Shown here in pieces: positions 4,972 through 19,850 of a stretch of DNA of 35,630 bases. Under the pieces are notes generated by a model, which saw only the letters and a list, made by a program, of their open reading frames with translations, ran no database searches and had not been told where the DNA came from. Within the stretch, counting starts at the first letter, position 1. The number at the start of each line of letters is the position of its first letter. Where the stretch lies: positions 1 to 35,630 of the forward strand of contig JAFPWS010000046.1 of NCBI GenBank assembly GCA_017412705.1. The letters are read 5' to 3'. Both the position numbers and the translations under genes were made by a program. This stretch comes from Prevotella sp. Lineage in GTDB: Bacteria; Bacteroidota; Bacteroidia; Bacteroidales; Bacteroidaceae.

Positions 4972-5024
4972 GTGAAACAAAAACGAGGTTGCATGTAACG
5001 TATTGGTAGAATCAACGAAACAAA
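4972..5024 (+). promoter_or_regulatory. Array of three GTGnAACAAA elements, 21/22-bp spacing
   Basis: Copies at 4972-4981 (GTGAAACAAA), 4993-5002 (ATGTAACGTA, weaker) and 5015-5024 (ACGAAACAAA). The invariant C positions are 4978, 4999 and 5021, giving spacings of 21 and 22 bp. The last C is 53 bp before the -7 box at 5074. The SusC promoter has exactly the same spacings and offset. It is a likely HTCS operator. Confidence 0.7.
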
Positions 5025-5073
5025 AGCGATGGTGCGAGATAATATATCAAATGCCTGTTTCAGGAATAGTGCG

Positions 5074-5081
5074 TAACTTTG
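5074..5081 (+). promoter_or_regulatory. -7 box for the 164-residue protein gene
   Basis: TAACTTTG matches TAnnTTTG and is followed by GCAC, as at the SusC promoter. No clear -33 TTG is present, which fits dependence on an activator. AAAATCGA at 5089-5096 recurs at the same offset downstream of the 19,843 promoter. Confidence 0.7.
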
Positions 5082-5140
5082 CACCATCAAAATCGAGATA
5101 GAAAATGTATTAATAACAAATCATTTAAAACTAAAGAATT

Positions 5141-5635
5141 ATGAAGAAATTGATGTTTGTATGCCTGATGGCAATGTTTGCAGTGACAATGAATGCCCAG
5201 ACTCCTTGGAAGATCATCGACATGGAGAATGTAACAAAGCACGGTGGCAACTGTGACTACGATGACGAGACGCTGACCGCAACCTTTAAGGAGAAGTGGG
5301 ACCGCTGGTTCGACCTGCCCGAGGTGAGTGGTGACATCACTGGTCACACCCAGCTGAACATGACTGTGTTGAAGAGTACCTGTATGCTGAAGGTGGTGCT
5401 GCGCTACAAGGATGCCGATGGCAAGCAACAGCAGGTGGACGCTGCCCAGCTTTATTATAATATGGGTAAGACCATTGACAGTCCGAAGAAGATGAAGATC
5501 GACCTGACCAACAAAGGCAAGATTGGTGAGGACGCGTTGAAGAACATCACCAGCATCCGCATCTCGATGGCTAAAGCCGTTGATGGCAACGAAGAGCCTT
5601 GGATGGTACAGTTTGGCGAGGTAACCATTCAATAA
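5141..5635 (+). CDS. Small secreted beta-sandwich protein, possible carbohydrate-binding module
   Basis: A 164-residue protein with a signal peptide ending at about residue 20 (MKKLMFVCLMAMFAVTMNAQ). The remainder is a single alternating beta-strand domain, including WKIIDMENV, LTATFKEKWDRWFDL, LKVVLRYKDADG, KMKIDLTNKGKIG and ITSIRISMAK. The order of features (tryptophan-containing strand, hydrophobic strand, arginine/tyrosine strand, KTIDLT-like strand, then a strand ending in an ISM/IRF motif) resembles the C-terminal modules of the fimbrillin-like proteins at 19.9 and 22.2 kb. I infer a stand-alone glycan-binding module. It has its own promoter with the locus-wide operator array and its own terminator, so it may be expressed strongly on xylan. 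No catalytic motif is seen and I assign no known family. Confidence 0.8.
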   Translation: MKKLMFVCLMAMFAVTMNAQTPWKIIDMENVTKHGGNCDYDDETLTATFKEKWDRWFDLPEVSGDITGHTQLNMTVLKSTCMLKVVLRYKDADGKQQQVDAAQLYYNMGKTIDSPKKMKIDLTNKGKIGEDALKNITSIRISMAKAVDGNEEPWMVQFGEVTIQ

Positions 5636-5640
5636 TCAAT

Positions 5641-5665
5641 GGAGCACCTCCTTTGGTGCTCCTTT
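5641..5665 (+). terminator. Intrinsic terminator after the 164-residue protein gene
   Basis: GGAGCACC (5641-5648) pairs with GGTGCTCC (5655-5662) around a 6-base loop and is followed by a short T run. It begins five bases after the stop codon. Confidence 0.75.
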
Positions 5666-5746
5666 AGTCCTCCTTAGGTGTTCCTTTTGAGTCTCGGTAG
5701 AGTTTCGGTTATGTTTCGGTATATCTTCGGTAGGGCTTCGGTAATC
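5658..5746 (+). repeat. 11-bp tandem repeat, five clear and three degenerate units
   Basis: Five units with the core TCGGTA occur at 5692-5702, 5703-5713, 5714-5724, 5725-5735 and 5736-5746; the CGG triplets start at 5695, 5706, 5717, 5728 and 5739, exactly 11 bp apart. The preceding 34 bases fall into the same phase as three degenerate units with a TCCTT core. The array fills most of the space between the upstream terminator and the beta-helix gene. Confidence 0.85.
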
Positions 5747-5787
5747 CAACGGAATAAACACAAAGAACAAAATAATACATCACAAAA

Positions 5788-7497
5788 ATGAAAAACAAAA
5801 TTACCCTTTTATTAATGGCTCTGTTTCTGGGAGCAGGATGTGTGTGGGCAGATGATGTAACCATCAGTTCTGAAGCAGAATGGAAATCTTTCGTAACAAC
5901 TGTAAAATCATCGCCTTCGACAAATGCGAAACTGACCGCAAACATTACTCTCACAGCAAATGCAAGCAATTTTGCAAATGACTACATGCCAGGAACATCG
6001 TCTTCTCCATATTCAGGAACATTTGATGGTCAAGGATTTACTGTAACATATAATAAAAATGGACTTTCTGAAGAGGTACAAGGCCTTTTCCGTTATATAT
6101 CCGGAGCTACCATTAAAAATTTGAGGACTGAAGGGTCATTGGAATCTTCTGGCACAGTGATGGGAGGCATTGTAGGGCAAGCCTTAGGCACTTGCACCAT
6201 TACGAATTGTGCAAGCTCGGTAACACTGACCAGAACAGGTTCTCCCACTGATGATGCAACTTATGGTGGAATAGTAGGTCGCACTGGAGATAATTCTACA
6301 GGAAATATTTCTATACAGAATTGTATTTACACAGGTGTTATATCCGGCAACAAGAGCATTTCTGGAATAGTGGGATATGTACGAAACAACTGTACGGTAA
6401 ATATAAGTAACACTTTGTTTGCCGGAACGTTAACCTCTACGGGGTCAAACAAATGTAATTTCTATCGTAGTGGAGGTACGTGCAACTTAGTTTCCAATTG
6501 TTATTACATCTCCAATTATGATTCGCAAGGTACAGCAGCTACTTCTGCTAACTTGTTAAATGGCGAACTTGCTTATACTTTAGCAAGTGCAGATGATACT
6601 AATAATACATTATTCTGGGGACAGGGTAATCTGAATAAGTCAAACATTGATGCATATCCAAATCTGACCAGCGAAGCAACAAAAAAAGTGGTTAAAGTTG
6701 ATATTAATGGTATGAGTACAAAACCATGTGTAAATCCTGGTGGAGCAATTCCTAACCCTTGCCGCTTTGGTAAATTGGGATTCAAGCTTAATAGTGGTGA
6801 TGCCTATTCTCTTGAAACCATGCCGACAGAAGGTGGCACATTCACCTATGGTACAAGCAAACTGGAAACAACGACGGGAATGTACTGTATCACGCTCTCT
6901 GCAGCTGCAACCACATTGATACTACCTTTTGACTGTGAGTCATTGCCAGACGGCATTACTGCTTATGATGTCACATATTCATCTGGTGATGCGGTCACAG
7001 CAACCCAAGTTACAAAGATTACGGCTGATAAACCTGTACTAATCAATGGCACCGCAGGTACAACCTATAAGTTTACGGGAACCTTTGGCGGAACCTTCTC
7101 TGGGACATTGTCAGATGGGGTAAAAGCTCATACTAATGGTGCACTGACAGGTGTTTATGTGGATGCTAACGCCAACAGTGGTTACAACCCCATTGCCTAT
7201 GTTCCTGCTAACAGCTATGTGCTACAGAATGGTACTGAAGGCCTTGGCTTCTATCAGGTTCAGAACGAGAATACCGTTCGCATCACTTCTTTCCGTGCTT
7301 ATCTAACGGTGCAAAGTGGTAGTTCTGCAGCACGTCGCTTGACTATTACATTCGACGACAATAATACAACGGGTATCAAGAATATCAGTGAGCAGACGAA
7401 CAACGATGATGCCATCTATACCTTAAACGGAACCCGTGTGGATCATCCAGTCAAGGGACTGTATATTAAGAATGGCAAAAAGTATATCGTAAAGTAA
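5788..7497 (+). CDS. Secreted GLUG-type beta-helix protein with type IX sorting tail
   Basis: A 569-residue exported protein with a signal peptide ending near residue 21 (GAGCVWA). Residues about 60-240 form a right-handed beta-helix of GLUG-like repeats: YSGTFDGQGFTVTY, VQGLFRYISGATIKNLRTEG, MGGIVGQALG, YGGIVGRTGD, ISGIVGYVRN. Residues about 360-530 are a beta-rich module ending with FRAYL, which also occurs in the GH98 protein at 24.9 kb. The last 30 residues (IYTLNGTRVDHPVKG then LYIKNGKKYIVK) look like a type A sorting domain of the type IX system, implying surface attachment or release. Function is unknown; adhesion or polysaccharide binding are possibilities. Base composition is AT-richer than its neighbours. 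No clear -7 box was found upstream; 11-bp repeats lie there instead. Confidence 0.85.
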   Translation: MKNKITLLLMALFLGAGCVWADDVTISSEAEWKSFVTTVKSSPSTNAKLTANITLTANASNFANDYMPGTSSSPYSGTFDGQGFTVTYNKNGLSEEVQGLFRYISGATIKNLRTEGSLESSGTVMGGIVGQALGTCTITNCASSVTLTRTGSPTDDATYGGIVGRTGDNSTGNISIQNCIYTGVISGNKSISGIVGYVRNNCTVNISNTLFAGTLTSTGSNKCNFYRSGGTCNLVSNCYYISNYDSQGTAATSANLLNGELAYTLASADDTNNTLFWGQGNLNKSNIDAYPNLTSEATKKVVKVDINGMSTKPCVNPGGAIPNPCRFGKLGFKLNSGDAYSLETMPTEGGTFTYGTSKLETTTGMYCITLSAAATTLILPFDCESLPDGITAYDVTYSSGDAVTATQVTKITADKPVLINGTAGTTYKFTGTFGGTFSGTLSDGVKAHTNGALTGVYVDANANSGYNPIAYVPANSYVLQNGTEGLGFYQVQNENTVRITSFRAYLTVQSGSSAARRLTITFDDNNTTGIKNISEQTNNDDAIYTLNGTRVDHPVKGLYIKNGKKYIVK

Positions 7498-7512
7498 AAG
7501 GAGGATAGCATT

Positions 7513-7653
7513 ATGAAAAAGAACTATATGAAGCCCAACATGAAGGTAGTAGAGCTGAAAAGCCGTCAAATGCTATTAGCAGGCAGTGCCGTTGGCACAA
7601 ATGTATATAGCGGTTCTGGTTATTATGCAGATGAAGATGAAGAGACATTGTAG
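7513..7653 (+). CDS. 46-residue small peptide, unknown function
   Basis: A short gene with a strong ribosome binding site (AAAGGAGG just before it) starts 15 bases after the beta-helix gene and is probably co-transcribed with it. The peptide starts MKKNYMKPNMKVVELKSRQ and continues MLLAGSAVGTNVYSG, ending in the acidic tail DEDEETL. It has a basic N-terminal half, a short hydrophobic MLLAGS segment and a glycine/serine/tyrosine-rich acidic C-terminal half. I know similar tiny proteins (MKK-x-Y-x-P, VV, then an LLAGS-like segment) from Bacteroidales genomes but not a function. The leader-core look invites comparison with peptide precursors, but no modification enzyme is nearby. A strong terminator follows. 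Confidence 0.7.
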   Translation: MKKNYMKPNMKVVELKSRQMLLAGSAVGTNVYSGSGYYADEDEETL

Positions 7654-7695
7654 TTAGTTTCAGTTAGTAGTTTTCTTAGTAGTTAGTTAGAAAAG

Positions 7696-7729
7696 CGTCG
7701 GGCGCACAGCGGTGTAGCCCGACGTTTTT
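7696..7729 (+). terminator. Intrinsic terminator after the small peptide gene
   Basis: CGTCGGGC (7696-7703) pairs with GCCCGACG (7717-7724), followed by five T (7725-7729). It closes the beta-helix/peptide unit and separates it from the regulator genes. TTAGT-rich repeats lie between the peptide stop and the hairpin. Confidence 0.85.
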
Positions 7730-7783
7730 GCTTAAAAAAACTAAAATCATTGTGTGTTTGTAGAAAAAGAATAAAAACATCAT

Positions 7784-7837
7784 TAGATATATCAAATAAA
7801 AGTTGTATATTTGCAACAGATTTATTAGATATATCTA
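7784..7837 (+). promoter_or_regulatory. Promoter and paired operator-like sites of the XRE-HTCS unit
   Basis: TATATTTG at 7806-7813 matches the -7 consensus. It is flanked by two copies of TTAGATATATC at 7783-7793 and 7825-7835; the second is part of a perfect 12-bp palindrome, TAGATATATCTA (7826-7837). The copies are 42 bp apart, four helical turns, straddling the -7 box. This suggests repression of the unit by its own XRE product (inference). The GTGnAACAAA element is absent here. Confidence 0.6.
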
Positions 7838-8178: not shown

Positions 8179-11100
8179 ATGATACAGAAACAAAGAATTT
8201 GGATGATGACGCTGATGCTGTCGGTAGTACTGACAACCTTGGCCGATAATGTGCGTTTCTACGATGCCGAGCAACTGTCGTCGAACCTGATAACAGGTAT
8301 CTGTCAAGACCAGAACGGTTATGTCTGGATTGGAACAGAATACGGTCTGAACAAGTTTGACGGAGTGCGGTTCATCAAGTACTATAACGACGAGGATAAT
8401 CCGAATTCGCTGGCAGACAATATTGTGCGCCGAATGTTGATGAGCCGCAAAGGTGAGCTATGGGTGGTCACCAACCTCAGCGTGCAACGCTATTTGTCGA
8501 ACAAGGATCACTTTGAGACGGTTCATTTTGGCGACGACACGAACGCCAATGTGGACAACATCGCTGAGACCCCCGACGGCCATATCTGGCTACACAGCAT
8601 TGCCCATGGCGTGATGGAGGTTGACTTTCAGCAGATGAACATCCGAAAACTGGATCAACTGAACAAACACATCCATCAAGAGCAAGTAAGCCGGATTTAT
8701 GTAGACTGCCACTACCGGCTCTGGGTTTGCTATAAGGACGAAGGTCTGCTGATGATAGACACAAAGACCGGCAAGACACGCCATTATTCCACTGACCAGT
8801 TGGGCGATAAGCGTGTCGTAGATCTGACAGAAGATGGAAAAGGCCAGTTGTTGCTGCTTACCTATTCGTCGGTATTGCGTTTGGACGACAGGACGACGGC
8901 TCTGGTTCCCGTTGTCAACATACCCTTGGAGTTGTCTGTCCACCATCTGTATAAAACTCATCAAGGAGAATTCCTTGTCGGATCATCCAGTCACGGTATC
9001 TACCAGATAGACTTTCAGGCAAAGACATTGAAACCAGTACTGGCGGCCCACTTTAACGGAACAGAGGTGCACCAGCAGAAAGTGCATGCCTACATAGAGG
9101 ATAAAGACGGCAACTCGTGGCTAGGCTGCTATAAATACGGTCTTGTGTTTATGTCGGCCAAGCCACAGCCCTTCCGTCAGATACCACTCAGCAGTATGGC
9201 TGCCAACAATGGAAAATTCCTGCGTTATATCTTTGCTGACAACCTGAAAAGGGTGTATATCTGTCAGGAACAGAACGGTCTGGTATCCATCAATCCTTCA
9301 GGAGAAATGTTGCGTCAGTGGCTGAAAGGCTATACGGTGGTCAGTGCCTATCAAGATAAGGCGGGACGCTATTGGGCAGGAACCTATCGCGATGGAGCCT
9401 GTCGCATAGACGAACAGAGTGGTAATCCCACCTGGATATCTTCGCTGGCGACTAAACGCGTGAAGAGTATTACCGAAGACAAGGACGGCAACATCTATAT
9501 GGCTGTATTCAACGACGGATTGCACAGCTATCGTCCTGACAATCTGGCGGAGAGAGTGTTGGGGAAAGGGCAGTTGGAATTGCATAACCGTTTCCTAAAC
9601 TCCGTGTTCACTGACACCAAGGGAATGATATGGATTGGTCACTACTATGGTATTGATGTCTATAATCCCAAGACAGACCAGTTAGTGGATGTAGGAGTCA
9701 ACGATACCCTGCGTCCAGCCATCACCTATGTGATAACAGAGACCAAGGATGGTGCGATGTGGGTAGGAACCAACAAGGGTCTCTTTTGCTATGACAACCG
9801 CCACCAATGGCATCGTTATACCGTGAAAGACGGTCTGGCCAATGAGAACGTCTGCGGCATCGTAGAAGCCCCCGACGGCTACTTGTGGATAAGTACCTAC
9901 CGAGGACTGAGCCGTTTCAGCAGGCAGGACGGCAGTTTCGTCAACTTCTATCAGGGCTATGGACTCGATACAAAAACCTACGAACGCGGTATATGCATGT
10001 TATCAGGAAAAGGTGAAGTTATCTTCGGCAGCGAGAAGTCTATGCTCTATTTTAAGTCAGAAACCATTGGTAAGGAAGATTTCAAACGAGGTCTTACGCT
10101 GACGGGCATCTGGCTGAATGGTGAGTCGGTAAACACTTCATCTCTATCAAATGGTTCTGCCATCATCGAGAAGCCTATTGAGACGACAGATGAAATGACC
10201 TTCTCTTATTACGACAACACCTTCACCCTGCAGTTCTCACCGCTTGATTTCCGTGAAGCAGAGAATGTGAGCTACGAATACCGCTTTAAGGACGAACCCG
10301 AAGGGACTTGGCATCAAACACCCATCGGTTCTGCAGAAATCACTTTCACCCATCTGTCTGCAGGTCGTCATCAACTCATGGTACGTGCCTGCGACAATGG
10401 TGTCTATTCACCTGTCAAGACTTTAACAATCCGCATCCTTTCGCCTTGGTATCGTTCACCGGGAGCCTATGTGTTCTATCTCCTGCTGCTCTGCGGCATC
10501 GGCCTGCTATGGTGGCGTAATTATTGGAACCGCCGTCAGGCAGAAACCAACGAAGAAAAGATCAAGTTCTTCGTGGATATCAGTCATGAGCTGCGCTCAC
10601 CACTGACACTTATCAAGAGTCCCCTTGACCAGCTGTTAAAGTCCACCCACGAGTCATCTTCTGTCAGGGCACTGCGTAACATTGAGCGTAACACCAACCG
10701 TCTGTTGACGCTGACTAACCAGATACTGAGCATCCGCAAGATAGAAAAAGGTCAGATGACTATGCGCTTTGCCGAGACACCACTGAGTGAATTCGTCAGC
10801 GACATCTGTCACGATTACGATTATCAGGTAGACAAGCGACAATTGAAACTGACCTTTACCAATGAGGCTGATGACATGAAAGTGTGGATAGACCGCGACC
10901 ACTTCGATAAGGTTGTTACCAACCTCATTAATAACGCCATCAAATATGTTTCCGACGGTGGCGAGATCAATATCATAGTACGTCATTCTGCTGACGGACA
11001 GGCAGAACTTGTTGTGAGAGACAATGGTACAGGTATTGACGAGTCACAGTTACGAAAGATTTTCGAGCGGTTCTACCAGGCATCAGTACGTCCTGCAGTC

Positions 11101-12141
11101 GGTCAGATGAGCTACGGTATCGGACTGAACCTGACACAGAAGATTGTCAGGATGCATCGCGGCACCATTGCAGCACACAATCGCACCGACGTAGAACACG
11201 GTTCGGAATTCATCGTGAGACTGCCTTTGGGCAACCAGCATCTGCCACAAGAGCAGTTGGTGGATAAAGACTATTTCGCTACAGTCTCTGCTACTGCCGA
11301 CGAGAAACCTTCTGCTTTAACGACAGATGCCGGAAAGTCCCGCCGTGCCAGAAAGAAGACCACCTATCACATTGCCGTTGTTGACGATGATGACGATATC
11401 CGTCAGTTCCTCCAGACCGAACTGAGCGACACCTATCATGTACATGCCTACGCCGATGGTCAGAAAGCCTTGGAAGGCATTGCCGATATCGTTCCCGACT
11501 TGGTGGTAAGCGATGTCGTTATGCCACAGATGGACGGCATAGAACTGCTGAAACGCATCAAGAGCAGTACCAAGACCAGCCACATTCCCGTTATTCTGCT
11601 CACTACTAAGACCGATCACATGTCGCGTGTAGAAGGTCTTGACCAAGGTGCCGATGCATACGTTGACAAGCCCTTTAATCTGGAAGAACTGGAGGCCCGC
11701 ATAGCCAGTCTTATTGCCAACCGCATCCGCGTAAGAGGTAAGTTTACCGGAGTCCAGGAGCAGGAAGATAAGGTGCGTAAGATTGAACTGAAGGGTAACG
11801 ATGCCGCCCTGATGGAGAAGATTATGAAAGCTGTCAACGACCGTTTGGACGACGATACCTTCAACGTGGAGGCCCTGGCTGATGAGGTAGGACTCAGTCG
11901 CGTGCAGCTGCACCGTCGCATGAAGGAGCTGACAGGCATCACCGTTGGTGAGTTCATACGAAACATACGATTACAACAGGCTGCCAAACTTTTGGAGGCT
12001 GGTGACACCTCGGTAGCACAGGTCACTTATGCCGTAGGTTTCTCAAATCCCAACCATTTCACCACTGCCTTTAAAAGGCATTTCGGAGTCACTCCATCAG
12101 AGTATATGGCTAAGGCTGCGCGTAAGCGAGAGCAGAGCTAA
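8179..12141 (+). CDS. Hybrid two-component system sensor-regulator (HTCS)
   Basis: A 1320-residue one-protein signalling system typical of Bacteroidetes polysaccharide loci. In order: signal peptide (about 1-22); two-propeller periplasmic sensor with many ligand-binding-type repeats such as GYVWIGTEYGLNKFDG; Y_Y_Y domain (about 685-755); one transmembrane segment (about 760-783, VFYLLLLCGIGLLWW); histidine kinase with phospho-acceptor H803 in FVDISHELRSPL; ATP-binding domain with N-box NLINNAIKY (915-923) and DNGTGI; receiver with D1112 in VVSDVVMP after the acidic VVDDDDD; and a C-terminal AraC-type DNA-binding domain (about 1225-1315). All key residues are present. It presumably senses xylo-oligosaccharides and activates the promoters with GTGnAACAAA arrays in this window (inference from position and from AraC-type 21-bp site spacing). 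Confidence 0.95.
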   Translation: MIQKQRIWMMTLMLSVVLTTLADNVRFYDAEQLSSNLITGICQDQNGYVWIGTEYGLNKFDGVRFIKYYNDEDNPNSLADNIVRRMLMSRKGELWVVTNLSVQRYLSNKDHFETVHFGDDTNANVDNIAETPDGHIWLHSIAHGVMEVDFQQMNIRKLDQLNKHIHQEQVSRIYVDCHYRLWVCYKDEGLLMIDTKTGKTRHYSTDQLGDKRVVDLTEDGKGQLLLLTYSSVLRLDDRTTALVPVVNIPLELSVHHLYKTHQGEFLVGSSSHGIYQIDFQAKTLKPVLAAHFNGTEVHQQKVHAYIEDKDGNSWLGCYKYGLVFMSAKPQPFRQIPLSSMAANNGKFLRYIFADNLKRVYICQEQNGLVSINPSGEMLRQWLKGYTVVSAYQDKAGRYWAGTYRDGACRIDEQSGNPTWISSLATKRVKSITEDKDGNIYMAVFNDGLHSYRPDNLAERVLGKGQLELHNRFLNSVFTDTKGMIWIGHYYGIDVYNPKTDQLVDVGVNDTLRPAITYVITETKDGAMWVGTNKGLFCYDNRHQWHRYTVKDGLANENVCGIVEAPDGYLWISTYRGLSRFSRQDGSFVNFYQGYGLDTKTYERGICMLSGKGEVIFGSEKSMLYFKSETIGKEDFKRGLTLTGIWLNGESVNTSSLSNGSAIIEKPIETTDEMTFSYYDNTFTLQFSPLDFREAENVSYEYRFKDEPEGTWHQTPIGSAEITFTHLSAGRHQLMVRACDNGVYSPVKTLTIRILSPWYRSPGAYVFYLLLLCGIGLLWWRNYWNRRQAETNEEKIKFFVDISHELRSPLTLIKSPLDQLLKSTHESSSVRALRNIERNTNRLLTLTNQILSIRKIEKGQMTMRFAETPLSEFVSDICHDYDYQVDKRQLKLTFTNEADDMKVWIDRDHFDKVVTNLINNAIKYVSDGGEINIIVRHSADGQAELVVRDNGTGIDESQLRKIFERFYQASVRPAVGQMSYGIGLNLTQKIVRMHRGTIAAHNRTDVEHGSEFIVRLPLGNQHLPQEQLVDKDYFATVSATADEKPSALTTDAGKSRRARKKTTYHIAVVDDDDDIRQFLQTELSDTYHVHAYADGQKALEGIADIVPDLVVSDVVMPQMDGIELLKRIKSSTKTSHIPVILLTTKTDHMSRVEGLDQGADAYVDKPFNLEELEARIASLIANRIRVRGKFTGVQEQEDKVRKIELKGNDAALMEKIMKAVNDRLDDDTFNVEALADEVGLSRVQLHRRMKELTGITVGEFIRNIRLQQAAKLLEAGDTSVAQVTYAVGFSNPNHFTTAFKRHFGVTPSEYMAKAARKREQS

Positions 12142-12148
12142 TTTCGAG

Positions 12149-12201
12149 GTGTAACAAAAACAGAGGTATATGCAACAAATCCGATGTATAGACTTAACAA
12201 A
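12149..12201 (+). promoter_or_regulatory. Array of three GTGnAACAAA elements before susC
   Basis: Copies at 12149-12158 (GTGTAACAAA), 12170-12179 (ATGCAACAAA) and 12192-12201 (ACTTAACAAA). The invariant C positions are 12155, 12176 and 12198, with spacings 21 and 22, and the last lies 53 bp before the -7 box. These numbers are identical to the 4972-5024 array. The array starts eight bases after the HTCS stop codon. Confidence 0.75.
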
Positions 12202-12250
12202 TACTAAGGTGAAGCGGACTCACAGATAGGCCCTTTTCGCTTATTTCCCG

Positions 12251-12258
12251 TAACTTTG
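12251..12258 (+). promoter_or_regulatory. -7 box of the susC operon
   Basis: TAACTTTG matches TAnnTTTG and is followed by GCAC as at the other arrays. No TTG is seen at the usual -33 distance, consistent with activator dependence. Confidence 0.75.
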
Positions 12259-12335: not shown

Positions 12336-15300
12336 ATGAATGACAAGAAGTTTTGGAGAATGCTCCTTCTGTTGCTCTTAATGCCTATCGGTATTCTGGC
12401 GCAAGACTTGGTGACAGCATCTGGCAACGTGGTGGATGCCACTGGCGAGCCATTGATAGGCTGTACGGTGCAGTTGAAGGATGGAAAGGCAGGTACCGTT
12501 GCCGATATGGACGGCAACTTCAAGCTACAGGTGCCAAAGAATGCTGTGCTCGTCTTCTCGTTCATCGGCTACAAGACTCAGGAGCTGAAAGCTGCTGCAG
12601 GGATGAAAGTAGTGATGAAGGACGACTCTCAGGTGATGAACGAAGTGGTGGTGGTAGGTTACGGCACCATGAAACGTAGCGACATCACCGGATCGGTAGT
12701 CTCGGTAAAAGCTGAAGACATGCAGCAGACGTCAGCCTCGACAATGGATCAGATGTTGCAAGGCCGTGCTGCCGGTATGCAACTGACCTCGAACAGCGGT
12801 GCTGCCGGTGGTAGTACCAGCATCCAGATTCGTGGTGTCAACTCGCTGAACTCCAGCAACGAGCCCGTCTATGTCATCGACGGCGCCATCATTACCTCTG
12901 AGGCAGGTTCTAATGTCTATAGCAATCCGCTGGCCGACCTGAACCCCAACGACGTAGAGAGCATTGAGATTCTGAAGGATGCCTCGGCTACTGCCATCTA
13001 TGGTGCCCAGGCTGCTAACGGTGTCATCATTGTCAATATGAAGAAGGGCTTCGAGGGCAGTGCACCGAAAATTAGTTTCAAGGGCCAGATGGGCTGGGAT
13101 ATGCTGCCTCATAAACTGGATGTGATGAACCTGCAGCAGTTTGCCGAGTGGGCACGCGAGGCCAACCTACAGCGCACCACCCCCAAGGAGAGTAATATGT
13201 TTGCCAACCCAGAGACGCTGGGCAGTGGCTCCGACTGGCAGGATGCCCTCTTCCGCACAGGTCTGCGACAGGAGTATAACCTCTCTGTACGCGGAGGCGG
13301 CAAGGGCGTCAACTACAGTCTCTCAGGAGGCTACTTCTCGCAGGAGGGTATCACCATCAACAATGACTTCCACCGTATCACGCTGCGTGGCTCGTTCGAT
13401 GTGAAAGCCTACAAATGGCTGGATTTGGGGGCGACATTCAATATCGGTCAGTCTGACCGCAACACCGGTATGGCCTCGTGGGACGTTGTACCCAATGCGC
13501 TGAGCGACACACCCAACAATGCCGTACGCAATCCCGACGGCTCGTGGGCCAAGTCGGGCTACAACGGCGATACCGATACCTGGCAGCCCAATCCCGTGGC
13601 GCTGGCCGAGATTACCACCCGTAAGAACAAGATTACCAGCAGCCGCACCAATATCTACTTCACGCTGAAGCCCTGGTCGTGGCTCAACTGGAAGAACGAG
13701 GCTACCTACGATACCAATACCGACAACTACCGCTATCTGTTGCCCGAGTATCAGTTGGGCGAGAATGGTGCCACCCGCGAATATGCCACCCATCAGTCCT
13801 CCAAGACCTACAACCTCTACTGGTCGTTGAAGTCGGTGGCTACCGGCAACTGGAAACTCAAGAAGGTTCACAAGATATCGCTGATGATAGGTGCAGAGAT
13901 GAACCATCGCTATCGTGACTATCTGTATGGTCAGCGTCTGGGTGGCTCGAATACCAATCTGGCACTGTCGGGAGGCGATGCCAGCCGCGACGACAATGCC
14001 GGCTACACCACTACCAAACGCTTCAGCAGTCTCTTCTCGCGTGTTACCTATAATTATAAGGACCGATATATGTTCACCGGCACCCTGCGTCACGATGGTT
14101 CTTCACTCTTCGAGCGCGGACAGCGCTGGGGCACCTTCCCATCAGCGGCTCTGGCCTGGCGCATCACCGAAGAGCCGTTCTGGATGATGCTGCAGGAGCG
14201 GTCGCACCTCTTTGGTGCCATCAGTTCGCTGAAACTGCGTGTGGGCTACGGACTGGTAGGTAACGCCAACCTGACGGAGAGCACCTTTATGGCCAACTTT
14301 GCCAATCTGGAATCCAACTTCGGCACCAGCTATAAAACCGCCAATATGCCCAACTACGACAAGCTGACCTGGGAGAAAACCGACTCATGGAATGTCGGCC
14401 TCGATTTGAGTCTGCTCGATAACCGCATTGAGTTTATCTTCGATGCCTTCCTGAAGAACACCCGTGACCTGCTGATGCAGACAGCCCTGCCGTTCTATTC
14501 CGGCACCTCTACCAAAGTCACGGGAAGTGCCGAACCGCAGTGGGCCAATATCGGCAACATGCGTAACCGAGGTATCGAGATGACGCTGAATGCCCATATC
14601 TTCAACAAGAAACACCTGAAGTGGAAGACATCGCTGACCTACTCGCTGGTGCAGAACGAGGTGACCAAGCTGAACAGCGAATCGGGATTTATCGACAAGA
14701 CCCTCGACTATGAGGGTACCGGCGAGACCATCACCCGCACTGCCGTAGGCTATGGCATCAGCCAGTTCTATGGCTTCCAGGTTGCAGGACGCATCAACTC
14801 TGCCGCCGACTTCCTGCGCAACAACGGCGATGGCACCAGTACGGTGATAGTCGCCACCCCCAACTATCGCATAGGAACGGTGGTCTACAACAGTTCTGCC
14901 AAGAACCTGCTGACCAGCATCGGCGACCTGCTGTTCCGCGACCTGAATGGCGACGGCATCATCGACGACAACGACAAGACGTTCCTCGGCAATGGTCTGC
15001 CCAAGTACACCTTCGGATGGAACAACACCTTTACTTACAAGCAGTTCGGACTCACCATTTTTATGTATGGCAGCGTAGGCAACAAGGTGTTCAACTGGAC
15101 ACGCCGCCGTATGGACGATCCGTCGCTGACGCCTGGTGGTGCTGCCTGGAACAAGTATGTGCGTACTGCCAACTATGCCAAGTGGGCTTATGTCGATGGC
15201 AACAGCGGCAATCTGGATGTATGGAATGTCTATGTGGCTCCTGGTGCCGAACCTTCTATCCCACGTATCGACAACCTGCACAACAACTATAATTCCAGAG

Positions 15301-15590
15301 TCAGCGACCGCTATGTCGAGGATGCCAGCTATCTGCGTATCAAGAACATTACGCTGACCTACAACGTTCCCAAGAACCTTCTCAAGAAATTCCACCTCTC
15401 CGACCTGCGCCTGTCGGCCAACATCCAGAACGTATGTACCCTCACGGGCTATACAGGCTACGACCCAGAGGTAGGCAGTCAGAACGGACAGTACTCGATG
15501 TCGGGTCAGGGCATGCTGATGTATGGTGTCGATACCGGTCGTGTACCGTCGCCCCGCTCGTTCATTTTCGGCATTGAAGCCACTTTCTAA
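12336..15590 (+). CDS. SusC-family TonB-dependent outer-membrane transporter
   Basis: A 1084-residue outer-membrane importer for xylan oligosaccharides. It has a signal peptide (about 1-22, ending ILAQ), a carboxypeptidase-regulatory-like N-terminal domain (about 27-105: ASGNVVDATGEPLIGCTVQL), and a TonB-box region with the SusC signature NEVVVVGYGT. A plug domain (about 115-225, with PVYVIDGAI and ASATAIYGAQAANGVIIV) and a long barrel follow, ending in the aromatic-terminated strand FIFGIEATF expected for BAM-dependent insertion. Length is normal for SusC proteins. It is first in the operon with SusD and two surface lipoproteins and sits behind a putative HTCS operator array. The coding sequence is G+C-richer than the HTCS gene before it. 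Substrate is inferred from the neighbouring enzymes. Confidence 0.96.
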   Translation: MNDKKFWRMLLLLLLMPIGILAQDLVTASGNVVDATGEPLIGCTVQLKDGKAGTVADMDGNFKLQVPKNAVLVFSFIGYKTQELKAAAGMKVVMKDDSQVMNEVVVVGYGTMKRSDITGSVVSVKAEDMQQTSASTMDQMLQGRAAGMQLTSNSGAAGGSTSIQIRGVNSLNSSNEPVYVIDGAIITSEAGSNVYSNPLADLNPNDVESIEILKDASATAIYGAQAANGVIIVNMKKGFEGSAPKISFKGQMGWDMLPHKLDVMNLQQFAEWAREANLQRTTPKESNMFANPETLGSGSDWQDALFRTGLRQEYNLSVRGGGKGVNYSLSGGYFSQEGITINNDFHRITLRGSFDVKAYKWLDLGATFNIGQSDRNTGMASWDVVPNALSDTPNNAVRNPDGSWAKSGYNGDTDTWQPNPVALAEITTRKNKITSSRTNIYFTLKPWSWLNWKNEATYDTNTDNYRYLLPEYQLGENGATREYATHQSSKTYNLYWSLKSVATGNWKLKKVHKISLMIGAEMNHRYRDYLYGQRLGGSNTNLALSGGDASRDDNAGYTTTKRFSSLFSRVTYNYKDRYMFTGTLRHDGSSLFERGQRWGTFPSAALAWRITEEPFWMMLQERSHLFGAISSLKLRVGYGLVGNANLTESTFMANFANLESNFGTSYKTANMPNYDKLTWEKTDSWNVGLDLSLLDNRIEFIFDAFLKNTRDLLMQTALPFYSGTSTKVTGSAEPQWANIGNMRNRGIEMTLNAHIFNKKHLKWKTSLTYSLVQNEVTKLNSESGFIDKTLDYEGTGETITRTAVGYGISQFYGFQVAGRINSAADFLRNNGDGTSTVIVATPNYRIGTVVYNSSAKNLLTSIGDLLFRDLNGDGIIDDNDKTFLGNGLPKYTFGWNNTFTYKQFGLTIFMYGSVGNKVFNWTRRRMDDPSLTPGGAAWNKYVRTANYAKWAYVDGNSGNLDVWNVYVAPGAEPSIPRIDNLHNNYNSRVSDRYVEDASYLRIKNITLTYNVPKNLLKKFHLSDLRLSANIQNVCTLTGYTGYDPEVGSQNGQYSMSGQGMLMYGVDTGRVPSPRSFIFGIEATF

Positions 15591-15623: not shown

Positions 15624-17573
15624 ATGAAAAAGTATTTATTCTTTATATTCAACAGCACCCTGATGCTATTGGTAGCAAGCGTGGCAATGGTGTTTATGCT
15701 ATCCAGCTGCGATGACTACCTTGACACCACCAACGAACGCATCGTACCGGCTCACGATGAACTGACTGACGGCGATGCCCTGCGTGCTACCACCGCCAGC
15801 CTCTATGCCCAGCCCTGGTACTACTTCCACAAGCAGCGCTTCATATCGCTGGGCGATGCCCGTGCCAACAACCTGTATATCTCGAACTCCACACTGGGCG
15901 AGGTCAACGCACAGGCAACCCTCAACGAGGAGAAGCAGAATGCCTCTATCCAGTATTCGTGGGCATCGCTTTACAATGTGGTTACGCAGGCCTGCTATAT
16001 CATCAACGACTATGCACCCTACTGCATCGCTAACGGCGTGTGCAGCGAGGCCGACGCCAATGCCTGTGCTGGCGAGGCCCGTTTCATGCGTGCCCTGGCC
16101 TATTGGTATCTGGCTATGTACTGGCACGACGTACCCATCGTCGACGACCCTGTGACGCAGAGTCCTACCGCCTATGCCAACAGTTTTGAGTATGTCATCC
16201 AGTATGCCCTCTGCGATGCCGAATATGCTGCCAAGTGGCTGTCTGTCTCTCCCATCAGTCGGGGTCGTGTGTCGCAGGTCAGCGCATGGGGCTTGCTCTC
16301 ACGCATCTACCTGACAGCTGCTGCCTGGGCCAACGGCAACCATTTCACGCAGTCATTCCAGACCTCCGTGCTCGATGCCTATTACGACGGCGATATTGAG
16401 TATGGTGCCAAGCAGAGCCTTGCGGAGTTCTACTATGCCAAAGCAGCCCTCGCCGCCCGAAAGGCCCTGGAACAGGCACCTGCGGCGGGCTACAGCCTGA
16501 TGGACGACTACGAGCAGCTGTTCCGTGTGCAGAACAACAACTGCCAGGAGGTGCTCTTTGCCATCCAGACGGTGGCGTCGAGCACCAGCTACGGACTGGG
16601 CAACGAGCTGCAGGGCATGTTCTGCTACGACCGCTGCATCAACAAGAACTACGGCATGACCTACTTCAATTGGGCCAGCTACGACGTGGTACTCCTTGCC
16701 AAAGAGCGTGGCGGACTGTCGCGAACCCGTGGCAATATCATGCCTCACGGTATGACCTACGACTATCTGTTCCACGAGCAGGACACCTGCCGCATCAAGG
16801 GCACCCCCTGGACGGTCAACCGCAACTCGTGGGACCCCGTTGCCATCAAGAAGCAGGTGGTGGGCGGTCCGTTGGGCACCGACAACATCGCCATTCAGGG
16901 CAACTCAGGTTTCTGCACCCCCATGCTGCGTCTCAGCGAGGTCTATCTGAACCTGGCTGAAGCCCTGATGGGACTCTACGGCGAAGAGCAGACCACCAAT
17001 CCCAAGATTCTGGCTGCCGTCAACACCGTGCGCCAGCGAGCCTATAAGACGGAGATTGCCCTGGGCACCTATCCTGGCGACTACACCCGCCTGAGCCTCG
17101 ACTCGCTGTTGCTGGAGCGCCGCATGGAGTTCTTTGCCGAAGGGCTCTACTGGACCGACATCGTGCGCCGTTCGTTTATGGGCGACAGCCACCTGAAGCG
17201 TATGCTCGACTACCAGAACAACCGTATTGCCGAACTGGAGGACGAGCCGCTGATGGGTTGCCACCGCCTTTACAAGTATTCCTATAAGAAGGACGACGAC
17301 CTGACCAAGATAGGCACCCCCACGCTGAGCACCAACGCCGCCGACGGCAGCTACATCGTGATTCAGCCCAGCCGCGACTGTGTCCACAACGTTCCCGAGG
17401 GCAGCTACTGCCACTCGCAGCAGTTGGGTGTCGCCGACAACCTCTGGTCAATGATCTATCCCCCTACCGAAGTCATGCAGGATGCCCATCTGCTGGAGGC
17501 CCCTGTCAGCTACGATTTTACCACGATTATTCAAAACAAATATTCTTACCGCTATGACGAAGCAAATCAATAA
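15624..17573 (+). CDS. SusD/RagB-family surface glycan-binding lipoprotein
   Basis: A 649-residue outer-membrane lipoprotein that acts as the lid of the SusC transporter. The signal peptide ends in the lipobox MLSSC with C29, followed by DDYLD, a Bacteroidetes surface-export-like acidic signal. The tetratricopeptide-like helical fold is indicated by GEARFMRALAYWYLAMYWHD (about 150-170), then the RagB/SusD region with RLSEVYLNLAEAL and the late motif LLLERRMEFFAEGLYWTDIVR. Length is somewhat above the usual 500-600 residues. It is second in the operon, 33 bases after SusC, and its 3' end overlaps the start of the next gene by 20 bases. Confidence 0.95.
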   Translation: MKKYLFFIFNSTLMLLVASVAMVFMLSSCDDYLDTTNERIVPAHDELTDGDALRATTASLYAQPWYYFHKQRFISLGDARANNLYISNSTLGEVNAQATLNEEKQNASIQYSWASLYNVVTQACYIINDYAPYCIANGVCSEADANACAGEARFMRALAYWYLAMYWHDVPIVDDPVTQSPTAYANSFEYVIQYALCDAEYAAKWLSVSPISRGRVSQVSAWGLLSRIYLTAAAWANGNHFTQSFQTSVLDAYYDGDIEYGAKQSLAEFYYAKAALAARKALEQAPAAGYSLMDDYEQLFRVQNNNCQEVLFAIQTVASSTSYGLGNELQGMFCYDRCINKNYGMTYFNWASYDVVLLAKERGGLSRTRGNIMPHGMTYDYLFHEQDTCRIKGTPWTVNRNSWDPVAIKKQVVGGPLGTDNIAIQGNSGFCTPMLRLSEVYLNLAEALMGLYGEEQTTNPKILAAVNTVRQRAYKTEIALGTYPGDYTRLSLDSLLLERRMEFFAEGLYWTDIVRRSFMGDSHLKRMLDYQNNRIAELEDEPLMGCHRLYKYSYKKDDDLTKIGTPTLSTNAADGSYIVIQPSRDCVHNVPEGSYCHSQQLGVADNLWSMIYPPTEVMQDAHLLEAPVSYDFTTIIQNKYSYRYDEANQ

Positions 17574-18231
17574 TATCCTGTTTGTGCTGATGGCCTGTGT
17601 GTCATTGCCGTTACTCACCGCCTGCCAGAAAGATGAGGAGGCGCCGCGTATCGACAGCGTATGGATGAACATGGTGACGCGCCCTGTCGAGCAGGTGTCG
17701 TGTGCCTATCCTGGACAGACCATCTGCCTGCGTGGTGAGAACCTCGGCGACCTGAAGCGTGTCATTGTCAACCACACCGACATCAACCTCAACACGCTCT
17801 ATGTCTATGAGTCGTCCACTGCCGTCACCTTCCAGTTGCCGTCGGACGTCAACACCGCTGGCGACAACATCCGTGTCGTTACCAAGTGGGGCATGACCGA
17901 CCACACCTTCATCATCCGTCCGCTCGCCGAGCAGCCTGCCGTCACCGCCTTCTCGGCTACCACACTCGTTGCCGGTCGCACCCTCACCATCACAGGCGAG
18001 AATCTGGAGGGCGTCCGTGAGGTGTGGCTACCGCTGGCTTTCAACAGCCGTGTACAGTGCGACATCGATGCCTCTCAGCCTGCCGATGCCACCACCGTCA
18101 GCGTCATCATCCCCGACGGTGTCACCTTTGCCAAGGGCCAGTGCGAGCTTGTCATGCAGAAGACCGATGCCACTCGCGGCATTACCTATACCGAGAAAGT
18201 TTACTCGTCGTCAACAGATTTCAGAAATTAA
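17554..18231 (+). CDS. TIG/IPT-domain surface lipoprotein (SGBP-like)
   Basis: A 225-residue lipoprotein likely to bind xylan at the cell surface. I chose ATG 17554, 72 bases inside the longest frame, because it gives MTKQINNILFVLMACVS with the lipobox LLTAC (C24). The upstream extension has no signal and lies in SusD coding sequence. The gene overlaps SusD by 20 bases, so translation is probably coupled. Two immunoglobulin-like TIG domains follow (about 45-125 with YPGQTICLRGENLGDLKRVI, and about 130-220 with VAGRTLTITGENLEGVREVW). This is the usual place for a surface glycan-binding protein in a Sus-type locus. It has no enzyme motifs and lacks the larger C-terminal binding domain seen in its downstream neighbour. 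Confidence 0.85.
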   Translation: MTKQINNILFVLMACVSLPLLTACQKDEEAPRIDSVWMNMVTRPVEQVSCAYPGQTICLRGENLGDLKRVIVNHTDINLNTLYVYESSTAVTFQLPSDVNTAGDNIRVVTKWGMTDHTFIIRPLAEQPAVTAFSATTLVAGRTLTITGENLEGVREVWLPLAFNSRVQCDIDASQPADATTVSVIIPDGVTFAKGQCELVMQKTDATRGITYTEKVYSSSTDFRN

Positions 18232-18238
18232 TACGCTT

Positions 18239-19735
18239 ATGAAAACCCATTCATTCCCCTTCGCCCTCATCCTTGCCGACATGCTGCTCTGTGCCTGCAA
18301 CAGCGATATCGAGATACCCGCGCTCCCTGAGCCTGAGAACGTAGAGGTAGCCGCAGGTGTTACCCTTGCCGCCGACCAGCTCTTTGGCATCTGGGAGGGC
18401 TCTACGGCAGTGGGCACCACCAATGCCAACCACTTCGAACAGACGTATCGTGTGGAGTTCCAGAGTGTCGACGATGCCGAGGCCATCTTCAGCCACTGGT
18501 ATGTCGATGCCTCGTCGGCCACCCGCGACTCCGTCTGCAATCTGGAGTATGCCTACACCTTCGATGGCACCACCGTCAGCCTGACGCCCAAAGCCACCGC
18601 TGCGGCTGGTGGAGCCGTCAGCATCAAGGCTGTTCATACCGGCAACAACCAGCTGGTGCTCTATACCACCCAGGCCGACCGCACCACTACCATGTGTACG
18701 CTCACCCGCACCGGCGACCCCGTGCCTGCCATCACCGCTGTCGATCGCACCCTGCCGCAGGCTGGCGAGACGGTCACCCTCACGGGGCGCAACCTGCAGT
18801 TTGTCGACCACCTCTACCTGCCTACCGCCACTGGCGAACTGGAGCTCACCAACTTCACTGCCACCTCTAAGCAGATTGTTTTCACCCTGCCACAGGCTGA
18901 CGTGGCTCCGGGCTATATCCGTTGCCAGGCCACAGGAGCTCACGTCAGCACCTATTCGCCCGCCATGTTCTGCCGCAACTGTGTGTTCTTCCATAACTTC
19001 TGCACCCAGGGCACCAGCAAGCCCTATACCGGCACGGAGTTCGAGAACACCATCAACATCACGCAGAGCCTCTTCGACAAGATTACCGCCGTCAGCGCCG
19101 CCAATCTGCCCGAGGGCCACGCCCTGACTCTCTCAACTCTAAACTCTAAACTCTCAACTTTCATCAGTCCCGATTCCATGCTCTGTTTCTTTGGCGATGT
19201 GCCCGTAGCGTGGGCTGTCGATGGCGGTCTCGATCCTGGCACCGGCATGCTGCGCTTCAGCTTTGGCGACCGCTTGCAGTACGTCACAGAACATTCCGGC
19301 GGACTGATTACTGAAAAGACCAAGTGTGCCGATGCCGCCATCCAGATGGACCTCTTTGTCTATAGCGACGGACAGCCCGAGTGGAACACCGGTTTCATGT
19401 CGTTCCGCCTCGACAAAGATCAGGGCAAGTCGCTCACCCAGTCGTGGTTTGCGCAGACCGCAGGTTGGCAGATGGACGCCCCCATGTCGTTTGCCGACGG
19501 ATGGAAGACCTTCACCATCCCCCTTTCAGCCTTCAAGGTCACCGAGAGCGAGGCCTACGCCACGGTGGGCAATCTGATGAACTATCTGAAGCAGAACAAG
19601 AAGCAGGCCATCATCAAGCTCATCAACTATCAGCTCGATGCCGCGCACCCCGCCCAGGCCCTCAGCTCGTTCCAGTTCTGCATCGCCAACATGCGCCTCG
19701 TGCCCTACGGAATCCCCGCCAATAGCGAGGAGTAA
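18239..19735 (+). CDS. TIG-domain surface glycan-binding lipoprotein with C-terminal binding domain
   Basis: A 498-residue lipoprotein. I chose ATG 18239 over the much longer frame from 17969, because it yields the signal MKTHSFPFALILADMLLCAC with lipobox cysteine C20, and because the extension lies entirely inside the preceding gene. An N-terminal beta-rich domain (about 40-160, LFGIWEGSTAVG) is followed by a TIG domain (about 165-245, AGETVTLTGRNLQFVDHLYL). A large C-terminal domain of about 250 residues ends in a strand pair typical of SGBPs (FCIANMRLVPYG). The C-terminal domain presumably carries the xylan-binding face. A heptamer repeat array encodes residues about 298-308 (LSTLNSKLSTF). 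It is last in the susC operon; the next promoter array begins seven bases after its stop. Confidence 0.85.
   Translation: MKTHSFPFALILADMLLCACNSDIEIPALPEPENVEVAAGVTLAADQLFGIWEGSTAVGTTNANHFEQTYRVEFQSVDDAEAIFSHWYVDASSATRDSVCNLEYAYTFDGTTVSLTPKATAAAGGAVSIKAVHTGNNQLVLYTTQADRTTTMCTLTRTGDPVPAITAVDRTLPQAGETVTLTGRNLQFVDHLYLPTATGELELTNFTATSKQIVFTLPQADVAPGYIRCQATGAHVSTYSPAMFCRNCVFFHNFCTQGTSKPYTGTEFENTINITQSLFDKITAVSAANLPEGHALTLSTLNSKLSTFISPDSMLCFFGDVPVAWAVDGGLDPGTGMLRFSFGDRLQYVTEHSGGLITEKTKCADAAIQMDLFVYSDGQPEWNTGFMSFRLDKDQGKSLTQSWFAQTAGWQMDAPMSFADGWKTFTIPLSAFKVTESEAYATVGNLMNYLKQNKKQAIIKLINYQLDAAHPAQALSSFQFCIANMRLVPYGIPANSEE
19130..19157 (+). repeat. Four tandem 7-bp repeats inside a coding sequence
   Basis: CTCTCAA, CTCTAAA, CTCTAAA, CTCTCAA run from 19130 to 19157. 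On the minus strand this reads TTGAGAG/TTTAGAG, close to the TTAAGAG heptamers between susC and susD. The frame stays open across it, adding a serine/leucine-rich stretch to the SGBP-like protein in an otherwise G+C-rich gene. Confidence 0.85.
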
Positions 19736-19741
19736 CAAGTA

Positions 19742-19814
19742 GTGATACAAAAGCAGTAAGTAGTGTAATTATCTATGGGAGAAGTGAAACAAAATCCTTC
19801 TTCAGCGAAACAAA
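19742..19814 (+). promoter_or_regulatory. Array of four GTGnAACAAA elements before the fimbrillin-GH98 operon
   Basis: Copies at 19742-19751 (GTGATACAAA), 19763-19772 (GTGTAATTAT, weak), 19784-19793 (GTGAAACAAA) and 19805-19814 (GCGAAACAAA), spaced exactly 21, 21 and 21 bp. The third copy is 53 bp before the -7 box, the same offset as the last copy at the other two forward arrays. The fourth is one turn-pair closer, at 32 bp. Confidence 0.75.
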
Positions 19815-19842
19815 TAAGTAGGCTGTTTTAGATGAAATGCAC

Positions 19843-19850
19843 TAATTTTG
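19843..19850 (+). promoter_or_regulatory. -7 box of the long fimbrillin-to-uxuB operon
   Basis: TAATTTTG matches TAnnTTTG and is followed by GCAC. AAAATCGA at 19858-19865 lies 15 bases after the start of the box, as at the 5074 promoter. A CTGTTT about 20 bases upstream is a poor -33 candidate. Confidence 0.7.

Follow-up and report, generated by a model that had tools for sequence, protein, structure and literature searches.

Forward and reversed 21-bp half-site arrays as predicted HTCS operators in a Prevotella PUL

Results

Genes and repeat arrays of the locus

We analysed a 35,630 nt stretch of DNA, referred to here as the window (Prevotella sp., GCA_017412705.1, contig JAFPWS010000046.1), which was read directly for arrays (Table 1). 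Besides the listed genes, the window encodes an ECF-like sigma factor and a 110-aa HTH_3 protein, whose gene immediately precedes that of the HTCS. Pfam and NCBIfam gave nothing over cut-off for the 164-aa protein. The HTCS gene sits between arrays 1 and 2. Its product carries a propeller sensor, a histidine kinase, a receiver and a C-terminal AraC-type domain on one chain; the C-terminal HTH_18 match in Pfam bears out the preliminary description of an HTCS ending in such a domain. The translated receiver contains SHIP, a form of the S/CHIP motif of the HTCSs in the accessible text of PMC11253607.

Table 1. Features of the window. Offsets count from the first base of the promoter box.
Feature	Position	Strand	Details
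Reversed array before GH115	347..445	-	C at 439, 418, 374, 353 (-34, -55, -99, -120)
Box TATCTTTG of GH115	473..480	+	-7-type; likely ATG 535
GH115 gene	478..3057	+	ORF called from TTG 478; in-frame ATG 535
Array 1	4972..5027	+	C at 4978, 4999, 5021 (-96, -75, -53)
Box TAACTTTG of 164-aa gene	5074..5081	+	-7-type
164-aa protein gene	5141..5635	+	
HTCS	8179..12141	+	Reg_prop, Y_Y_Y, HisKA, HATPase_c, Response_reg, HTH_18 (Pfam)
HTCS HTH_18 DNA-binding domain	11875..12111	+	residues 1233-1311; proposed array reader
Array 2	12149..12204	+	C at 12155, 12176, 12198 (-96, -75, -53)
Box TAACTTTG of susC	12251..12258	+	-7-type
susC-type TonB-dependent receptor gene	12336..15590	+	
Array 3	19742..19817	+	19748 (C), 19769 (T, degenerate), 19790 (C), 19811 (C) (-95, -74, -53, -32)
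Box TAATTTTG before fimbrillin-like genes	19843..19850	+	-7-type
First of four fimbrillin-like (Mfa_like_1) genes	19906..21267	+	

Forward arrays keep a fixed register to the box

Arrays 1-3 precede susC and further genes of the HTCS-encoding PUL, each with at least two same-strand sites ~21 bp apart. The half-site spans ~13 bp (rTGnAACAAAAnC). Because it recurs every 21-22 bp, or two helical turns, the copies fall on the same side of the DNA. With the first base of TAnnTTTG as reference, the forward ladder occupies -53, -74/75 and -95 to -97, and also -32 at some promoters. The preliminary description had reported a copy exactly 53 bp before the box, GCAC behind the box, and identical spacings of 21 and 22 bp in arrays 1 and 2. 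All of this was confirmed, the first two points at 3/3 promoters (copies at 5021, 12198 and 19790); array 3 is spaced 21, 21, 21. Its three arrays with a 10-bp repeat every 21-22 bp are real, but a fourth, reversed array at GH115 had been overlooked. The C described as invariant is present in nine of ten copies, the exception being 19769, and the 10-bp word GTGNAACAAA is matched in full by only three of ten (4978, 12155, 19790).

Array 3 has strong copies at both -32 and -53, so another copy lies closer to the promoter there than the anchoring one at -53. A strong -32 site is absent from the susC and 164-aa promoters. The -33 word, TTTG, was absent between -30 and -10 in 13/13 promoters, an absence that is common by chance over 20 bp.

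The arrays stand out from background

A weight matrix was built from the ten plus-strand copies of the window. Nine matrix pairs at 21/22 bp in the window reached a score of 11 or more, and every one falls within the four arrays. Pairs scoring at least 17 numbered nine in the window, whereas 20 first-order Markov sequences averaged 0.05. The comparison is circular for the pairs on the plus strand (seven) and not for the two minus-strand pairs at GH115, which scored 28.1 and 18.6. Two AACAAA words spaced 21/22 bp apart occurred 12 times in the home assembly (3.42 Mb, 86% complete); six were on the 35.6-kb contig, five of these in the arrays.

Profile R1, which combines array and box and has the three window promoters in its training set, gave 85, 77 and 64 bits at those promoters; the next place in the home genome (G000) reached 30.5 bits. 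Among the 150 of 662 first-look candidates that were scored in the home assembly, the window promoters were the only matches above 31 bits. R1 also found the 164-aa promoter of a relative (G529), outside the training set, at 48 bits. Control boxes within ORFs (n = 86) had no forward pair and one reversed pair, at -109. A chance origin of the arrays was rejected on the Markov controls, the conservation described below and these control boxes.

The arrays before susC and the 164-aa gene are conserved in relatives

Three relatives with orthologous HTCS and PUL DNA were compared (G594, G529, G482). Their HTCSs are 57-69% identical to that of the window, and their HTCS DNA-binding domains 75-82%. 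The array was present before susC in 3/3 relatives and before the 164-aa gene in 3/3, and all six promoters were in register. With the window's three promoters counted in, the -53 copy occurs at 9/9 forward promoters. A weight matrix derived solely from the window located the arrays at the orthologous genes of all three relatives, a non-circular test. The fimbrillin array was not found in these relatives.

The first recognition helix of the HTCS reads SR(V/A)QLHRRMKEL in the three relatives; among 53 paralogue loci, SRAQLHRKMKEM was the most frequent form (20/53). A search for relatives by the HTCS locus gave remote matches only (best full-length match, 28% identity). A fourth HTCS orthologue, G613, shares 53% identity. 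Its best susC match is 38%, with none close, and no full array was found (top R1 score, 25 bits); G613 therefore provides no test of the link between HTCS and array.

A reversed array precedes GH115

The GH115 array forms a minus-strand ladder at -34, -55, (-76), -98/99 and -119/120. We observed it at -34/-55 in 4/4 species, the window and the three relatives. Service to a divergent gene was considered and rejected for the window, G594 and G482, as no own-strand TAnnTTTG lies within 130 bp there. G529 may have a second target at this site: it has a TATCTTTG on the plus strand at distances of 72, 93 and 114 bp from the copies, outside the -53 register.

The reversed form was firmly seen only at GH115 genes, and none of 96 promoters of other HTCS loci had a reversed array in register. 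Two of eight GH115 promoters scored as reversed (L224, L227) proved to be forward, with a -53 site; their repeat also scores backwards. As a general reversed mode, the bare TTTGTT pair pattern gave lengths spread over 56-58 and 64-70.

The register recurs at other HTCS loci

In the 96 promoters at HTCS loci, lag-21 identity was found in 160 (overlapping) sequence windows versus 7-28 at 14 other lags, with the biggest peak at -60 to -54. Where pairs are present at other HTCS loci, they lie mostly at -53/-32. HTCS motifs across the genus have TGnAACA in common. In a motif-free count over eight other HTCS-type stretches of the same genome (18 promoters), lag 22 gave 41 windows and lag 21 gave 10; the single array there, at -72/-51/-29, misses the register by two to three bp. 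Contigs C96 and C36 of this genome carry HTCSs whose DNA-binding domains are 46% and 58% identical to that of the window HTCS, and two C96 promoters have a half-site at -53. Outside the family, lag-21 windows at 17 Bacteroidota loci numbered 40 in 46 promoters and 62 in 155 control boxes.

A -53 register as the mark of a xylan regulon is not supported by these data, because most pairs at other HTCS loci are also at -53/-32 and C96 half-sites are at -53. The earlier proposal that the array defines the xylan regulon is supported in a narrow sense, in that the three promoters alone exceed 31 bits with R1 among the candidates scored; such a regulon has to include the reversed GH115 array as well.

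Discussion

Our data suggest that arrays 1-3 and the reversed GH115 array are operators of the adjacent HTCS (8179-12141), a prediction from sequence to which we assign a probability of about 0.8. As the preliminary description proposed, the candidate reader is an AraC-domain HTCS encoded in synteny with the arrays, and the arrays are conserved with that HTCS in three relatives. Published 21-bp direct repeats lend further support. The window also offers an HTH_3 protein and an ECF-like sigma factor as possible readers. A two-turn direct repeat suits AraC-type domains, whereas repressors of the HTH_3 type usually bind inverted repeats as dimers and ECF factors recognise a -35/-10 pair. By tblastn (E up to 0.01), neither gene was detected in the relatives' stretches (L139-L145), three of which keep the arrays, and we consider reading by either protein very improbable.

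Because HTCS motifs are alike in TGnAACA, a paralogue might also use the arrays. Binding by a paralogous HTCS instead of the local one, or by several HTCSs together, draws on the C96 and C36 proteins, the two C96 promoters with a -53 half-site and the genus-wide motif. We regard it as unlikely, since in its own assembly the full-array profile exceeds 31 bits only beside the local HTCS, and the paralogues' DNA-binding domains are well below the orthologues in identity (46% and 58% versus 75-82%). The repeats could also be phased A-tracts, acting through DNA bending or as a UP-like element with no specific activator: AAACAAA is A-rich, 21 bp is two turns, and weaker length classes recur about every 10 bp too. 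Yet the top conserved letters include G at -4 (44/51 sites) and C at 0 (46/51), bends require no 21-bp TGnAACA copies, and high array-plus-box scores occur at this locus only in the assembly. This last explanation is the least probable of all. Among the observations that run against the HTCS-operator reading, the fimbrillin array is missing in relatives, lag 22 prevails over lag 21 in the other HTCS-type stretches of the same genome, and both main promoters have a weak -32 site or none.

If the HTCS reads the arrays, xylan-derived oligosaccharides would be sensed, the HTCS would be phosphorylated and its AraC-type domains released to bind the ladder as tandem protomers. The protomers nearest the promoter may then aid sigma and RNA polymerase, making up for the lack of a -33 word. 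Where a promoter has the -53/-32 pair, the inner of the two sites would cover the -33 region, an arrangement resembling class II activation. At susC and the 164-aa gene, activation would depend on the trio at -53, -75 and -96, and GH115 activation would come from the reversed orientation.

E. coli AraC uses direct half-sites, araI1 and araI2, 21 bp apart, and its proximal half-site lies close to the -35 region. The present arrays resemble these in AraC-type domains, direct half-sites and the 21-bp interval. They differ in that araI1/araI2 are two half-sites for a soluble sugar-binding AraC, whereas here there are up to four copies and a membrane hybrid kinase.

HTCSs are a major regulator class for glycan utilisation in Bacteroidota, and 21-bp HTCS direct repeats are already published. 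According to the accessible text of Ravcheev et al. 2013 (PMC3878776), HTCS motifs of B. thetaiotaomicron are direct repeats with an average of 21 bp between sites, located in PUL-operon promoters beside the HTCS gene, and a dimer on one DNA face was proposed. Those motifs have two sites each, whereas the window arrays have three or four, stand in constant register with the -7 box and include a reversed one; that text describes no promoter-box distance and no reversed arrays. A receiver plus AraC domain of HTCSs binds susCD promoter DNA (BT4124/BT4663 on bt4114 and bt4662; PMC11253607), and half-site geometry is not dissected in the accessible part of that paper. The accessible parts of PMC12125979, PMC6874557, PMC10994844, PMC7366714 and PMC10766802 give no promoter geometry for HTCSs. 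HTCS operators thus appear in the searchable literature, as far as its text is accessible, as direct repeats without a promoter coordinate, and we found there no strict -7-box register, ladders of three to four copies or conserved reversed array. A base-exact register would make operator prediction a positional test and help to infer start sites and regulons with nothing but sequence. It would also provide a design rule by which glycan-responsive promoters could be built or inverted.

We tentatively propose, at somewhat less than even odds, that HTCS promoters of the genus share one strict geometry with two polarities: a forward 21-bp ladder with -53 and often -32, or a reversed one at about -34/-55. 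If so, one activator would drive PUL genes from opposite orientations and helix faces, and the conserved polarity (GH115 reversed in 4/4 species) would set the alpha-glucuronidase response apart from uptake and backbone cleavage. The conserved reversed array raises the question of how a single activator anchored in the membrane could act from either orientation. An AraC-family activator acting in both orientations at different promoters has been published; in the accessible text its reverse sites are mostly placed further upstream, and sites are bound singly, whereas here the reversed sites form 21-bp ladders. The arrays also depart from the MarA-type class I/class II rule, by which forward sites overlap the upstream sigma element and reverse sites are distal. 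The forward -53/-32 pairs fit this rule, but the reversed -34/-55 pairs occupy nearly the same place, lying only ~6 bp upstream of the forward-pair location.

Phased half-site arrays in the glucuronoxylan-type locus

The preliminary description placed three same-strand arrays, with copies 21-22 bp apart, ahead of the 164-aa gene, susC and the first fimbrillin gene (arrays 1-3), and our reading of the DNA bore this out. Half-site positions refer to the distance from the half-site C to the first base of the −7 box (TAnnTTTG). In 3/3 arrays, one copy lies exactly 53 bp ahead of TAACTTTG or TAATTTTG. The C described as invariant holds at the other listed positions, but position 19769 is a T. We observed a fourth array, overlooked previously, ahead of GH115; it consists of two pairs with 44 bp between them. 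A weight matrix built from the ten plus-strand copies, without the two minus-strand pairs, gave 9 pairs scoring ≥11 in the window, all 9 inside the four arrays. Nine pairs scored ≥17, whereas 20 Markov sequences averaged 0.05. Among sites over threshold, off-ladder sites included, the half-site motif rTGnAACAAAAnC had the C in 46/51 and a G at −4 in 44/51.

The window is the entire contig C56; the assembly to which it belongs has 96 contigs, totals 3.42 Mb and is 86% complete. Judged by its genes, it holds a polysaccharide utilisation locus (PUL) of glucuronoxylan type, a substrate deduced from gene families. These genes encode GH115, 620-aa, 164-aa and 569-aa proteins, an HTH_3 protein, the hybrid two-component system protein (HTCS), SusC, SusD, a glycan-binding protein, four fimbrillin-like proteins, GH98, GH10, an MFS transporter, GH43, an ECF-like sigma factor, UxuA and a mannitol-dehydrogenase-type protein.

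Conservation with the orthologous HTCS

The HTCS was searched against 398 genomes of this genus, sampled from a larger group, and the two best candidates per genome were scored. HTCS orthologues were found in four genomes besides the window's own: G529 (58% identity to the window HTCS), G482 (57%), G613 (53%) and G594 (69% over residues 745-1317, plus a second piece at 47%, in a split frame). The next-best match among the candidates scored was 38%. In the PUL DNA of G529, G482 and G594, the window-only matrix found three or four copies ahead of both susC and the 164-aa gene in 3/3 relatives. Each of these arrays includes a −53 copy, the remaining copies lying at −74/75 and −95 to −97, and GCAC directly follows the box in 4/6 of the promoters. 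An additional copy at −32 is strong in array 3 and weak in two 164-aa promoters. Array 3 has no counterpart in these three relatives. G613 has no close susC (best match 38%) and is therefore no test of the link between HTCS and array.

Separately, the G594 HTCS (L143, G594:C22) is split across two frames, yet the arrays there are intact. In G613, a good half-site pair, reminiscent of array 3, precedes a gene whose C-terminal part is fimbrillin-like, and a susC-like gene has reversed TGAAACAAA-type copies (see table).

A reversed array at GH115

GH115 orthologues are 81-86% identical, and each of the four species has its array on the opposite strand. The gene upstream of GH115 points the same way as GH115 in G594 and G482, so a divergent target fails to explain the reversed polarity there. 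A divergent box does lie near the array in G529, but not in the −53 register. The block CTATTGnAnGTnT, between the reversed array and the GH115 box, is conserved in three species and is perhaps a further element.

Features and coordinates of the arrays and neighbouring elements
Feature	Stretch	Coordinates	Strand	Positions from box
Array 1 (164-aa gene)	window	C at 4978/4999/5021	plus	
Array 2 (susC)	window	C at 12155/12176/12198	plus	
Array 3 (first fimbrillin)	window	19748/19769/19790/19811	plus	
Fourth array (GH115)	window	347-445; C at 439/418 and 374/353	minus	−34, −55, −99, −120
Reversed GH115 array	G594			−34, −55, −98, −119
Reversed GH115 array	G529			−34, −55, −76
Reversed GH115 array	G482			−34, −55 (weaker)
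CTATTGnAnGTnT block	L144	within 14688-14823		
CTATTGnAnGTnT block	L145	within 7043-7150		
CTATTGnAnGTnT block	window	within 345-485		
Half-site pair (fimbrillin-like gene)	L158 (G613:C95:399-3498)	C near 1565	minus	−53/−32
susC-like gene, reversed copies	L168 (G613:C182:2134-5205)			−75/−97
ECF-like sigma factor gene	window	31681-32202		
tRNA-Asp call	window	14908-15000	minus	
tRNA-like text	window	near 95-177	plus	
Four fimbrillin-like genes	window	19906-24896		

A GH115 match was present in 253/348 genomes searched. We surveyed 37 upstream regions (8 plus 29 from the best-scoring matches; the window's own promoter excluded). Forward pairs passed the set threshold in 11 regions and reversed pairs in 8, compared to 0.85 and 0.75, respectively, in mononucleotide shuffles of the regions. 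Forward pairs with a box had a −53 site in 9/9 promoters, which cluster into 7 groups at 75% identity. Of the reversed candidates, L224 and L227 were rejected: they are forward, with a −53 site (10.9), and their repeat scores backwards too. The six left comprise the three orthologues (−34), the second GH115 genes of G529 (−55) and G594 (−33, −54), and the weak L243 (−55). In the own genome, the second GH115 (contig C36) is preceded by a lone strong reversed site at −36, with a weak one at −57.

Specificity within the genome

The training set of R1, a profile of array plus −7 box, was eight forward promoters; the window's three, which belong to that set, scored 85.2, 77.2 and 64.2 bits. The next place in the own genome, among 150 of 662 first-look candidates scored, was the paralogous HTCS locus on contig C96 (30.5 bits). 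R1 also found the G529 164-aa promoter, outside the training set (48.4 bits). The C96 locus has a half-site at −53 in two promoters (13.5, 11.2), the best at −32 scoring only 1.5. Eight other HTCS-type stretches of the genome (18 promoters) gave 41 windows at lag 22 compared to 10 at lag 21; their sole matrix pairs form the −72/−51/−29 array ahead of the C96 HTCS gene.

A paralogous HTCS could share the array sites, but in its DNA-binding domain the window HTCS is 46% and 58% identical to the closest two of the own-genome paralogues examined (C96 and C36, respectively), compared to 75-82% for the three orthologues. It is very improbable that the HTH_3 protein or the ECF-like sigma factor reads the array instead, as searches at E ≤0.01 detected neither in the compared stretches of relatives. 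Least probable of all are phased A-tracts, which leave the conserved C and G of the half-site unexplained.

Register at other HTCS loci

We sampled 53 other HTCS loci, orthologues left out, from this genus and its family, giving 96 non-redundant promoter-like boxes of 105. A motif-free test counted overlapping 10-letter windows in which ≥8 letters matched at a given lag. We observed 160 windows at lag 21, compared to 7-28 at 14 other lags within 15-29. The highest lag-21 peak was at −60 to −54, matching the prediction from a C at −53, and in 13/96 promoters a lag-21 window began between −64 and −50 (0-3 at other lags). The matrix found 23 forward pairs, 14 at −53, 3 at −54 and 6 elsewhere; the 86 control boxes inside ORFs gave none. 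A pair is missing from most of the 96 promoters; the pairs that occur are mostly in register. Five reversed pairs lay at −86 (2), −79, −43 and −24, all outside the GH115 register, which counts against a general reversed mode. R1-picked loci, a biased set of 33 promoters, contributed 11 forward pairs, of which 4 lay at −53 and 2 at −54; their reversed pairs lay at −54 and −35.

A genus-wide pattern search (398 genomes) returned at least 150 places, from which 16 rows of G325, G341 and G590 were dropped as a dispersed repeat. Of 134 listed places, 40 had the length of the −53/−32 register (63 or 64 bp), compared to 4 at 62 and 6 at 65. In G325 and G341, the dispersed AACAAAGTTATTAAGATTGTT-type units often end in TTATTAACTTTG and therefore mimic an array plus −7 box.

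Proposed mode of action

On one tentative reading of these data, HTCS promoters in this genus are read forward at −53 or reversed at about −34/−55. We place the probability at roughly 0.4, down from 0.5 because L224 and L227 proved forward and the 96 promoters sampled at other HTCS loci had no in-register reversed pairs. Published work describes recognition by the primary sigma factor of TAnnTTTG, the −7 box, and of TTTG at −33 (PMC7366714), HTCS motifs as direct repeats averaging 21 bp (PMC3878776), and binding of receiver-plus-AraC parts of HTCSs to susCD promoters (PMC11253607). HTCS protomers would sit in tandem on one DNA face, fitting the two-turn spacing. A −32 site would act close to the −33 element, and at susC and the 164-aa gene the −53/−75/−96 trio would stand in for it. 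TTTG was absent between −30 and −10 in 13/13 promoters, a weak result, as most 20-bp stretches lack TTTG. At GH115, activator sites would be reversed and slightly upstream. MarA-type activators (PMC10268841) offer a precedent for reverse-orientation activation; unlike at GH115, reverse sites in that case tend to lie farther upstream. The 21-bp repeats of HTCS operators are already known. Searches of open-licence PubMed Central papers showed no promoter register, multi-copy ladders or reversed HTCS operators, which is not proof of absence.

Other observations in the locus

The ECF-like sigma factor gene lies between GH43 and UxuA, with no anti-sigma seen alongside. ARAGORN called a tRNA-Asp within the susC ORF, probably falsely, and left a tRNA-like text uncalled. 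Four successive fimbrillin-like (Mfa_like_1) genes, then GH98, lie within this xylan-type PUL, and similar fimbrillin-like genes are found at the corresponding position in G529, G482 and G594.
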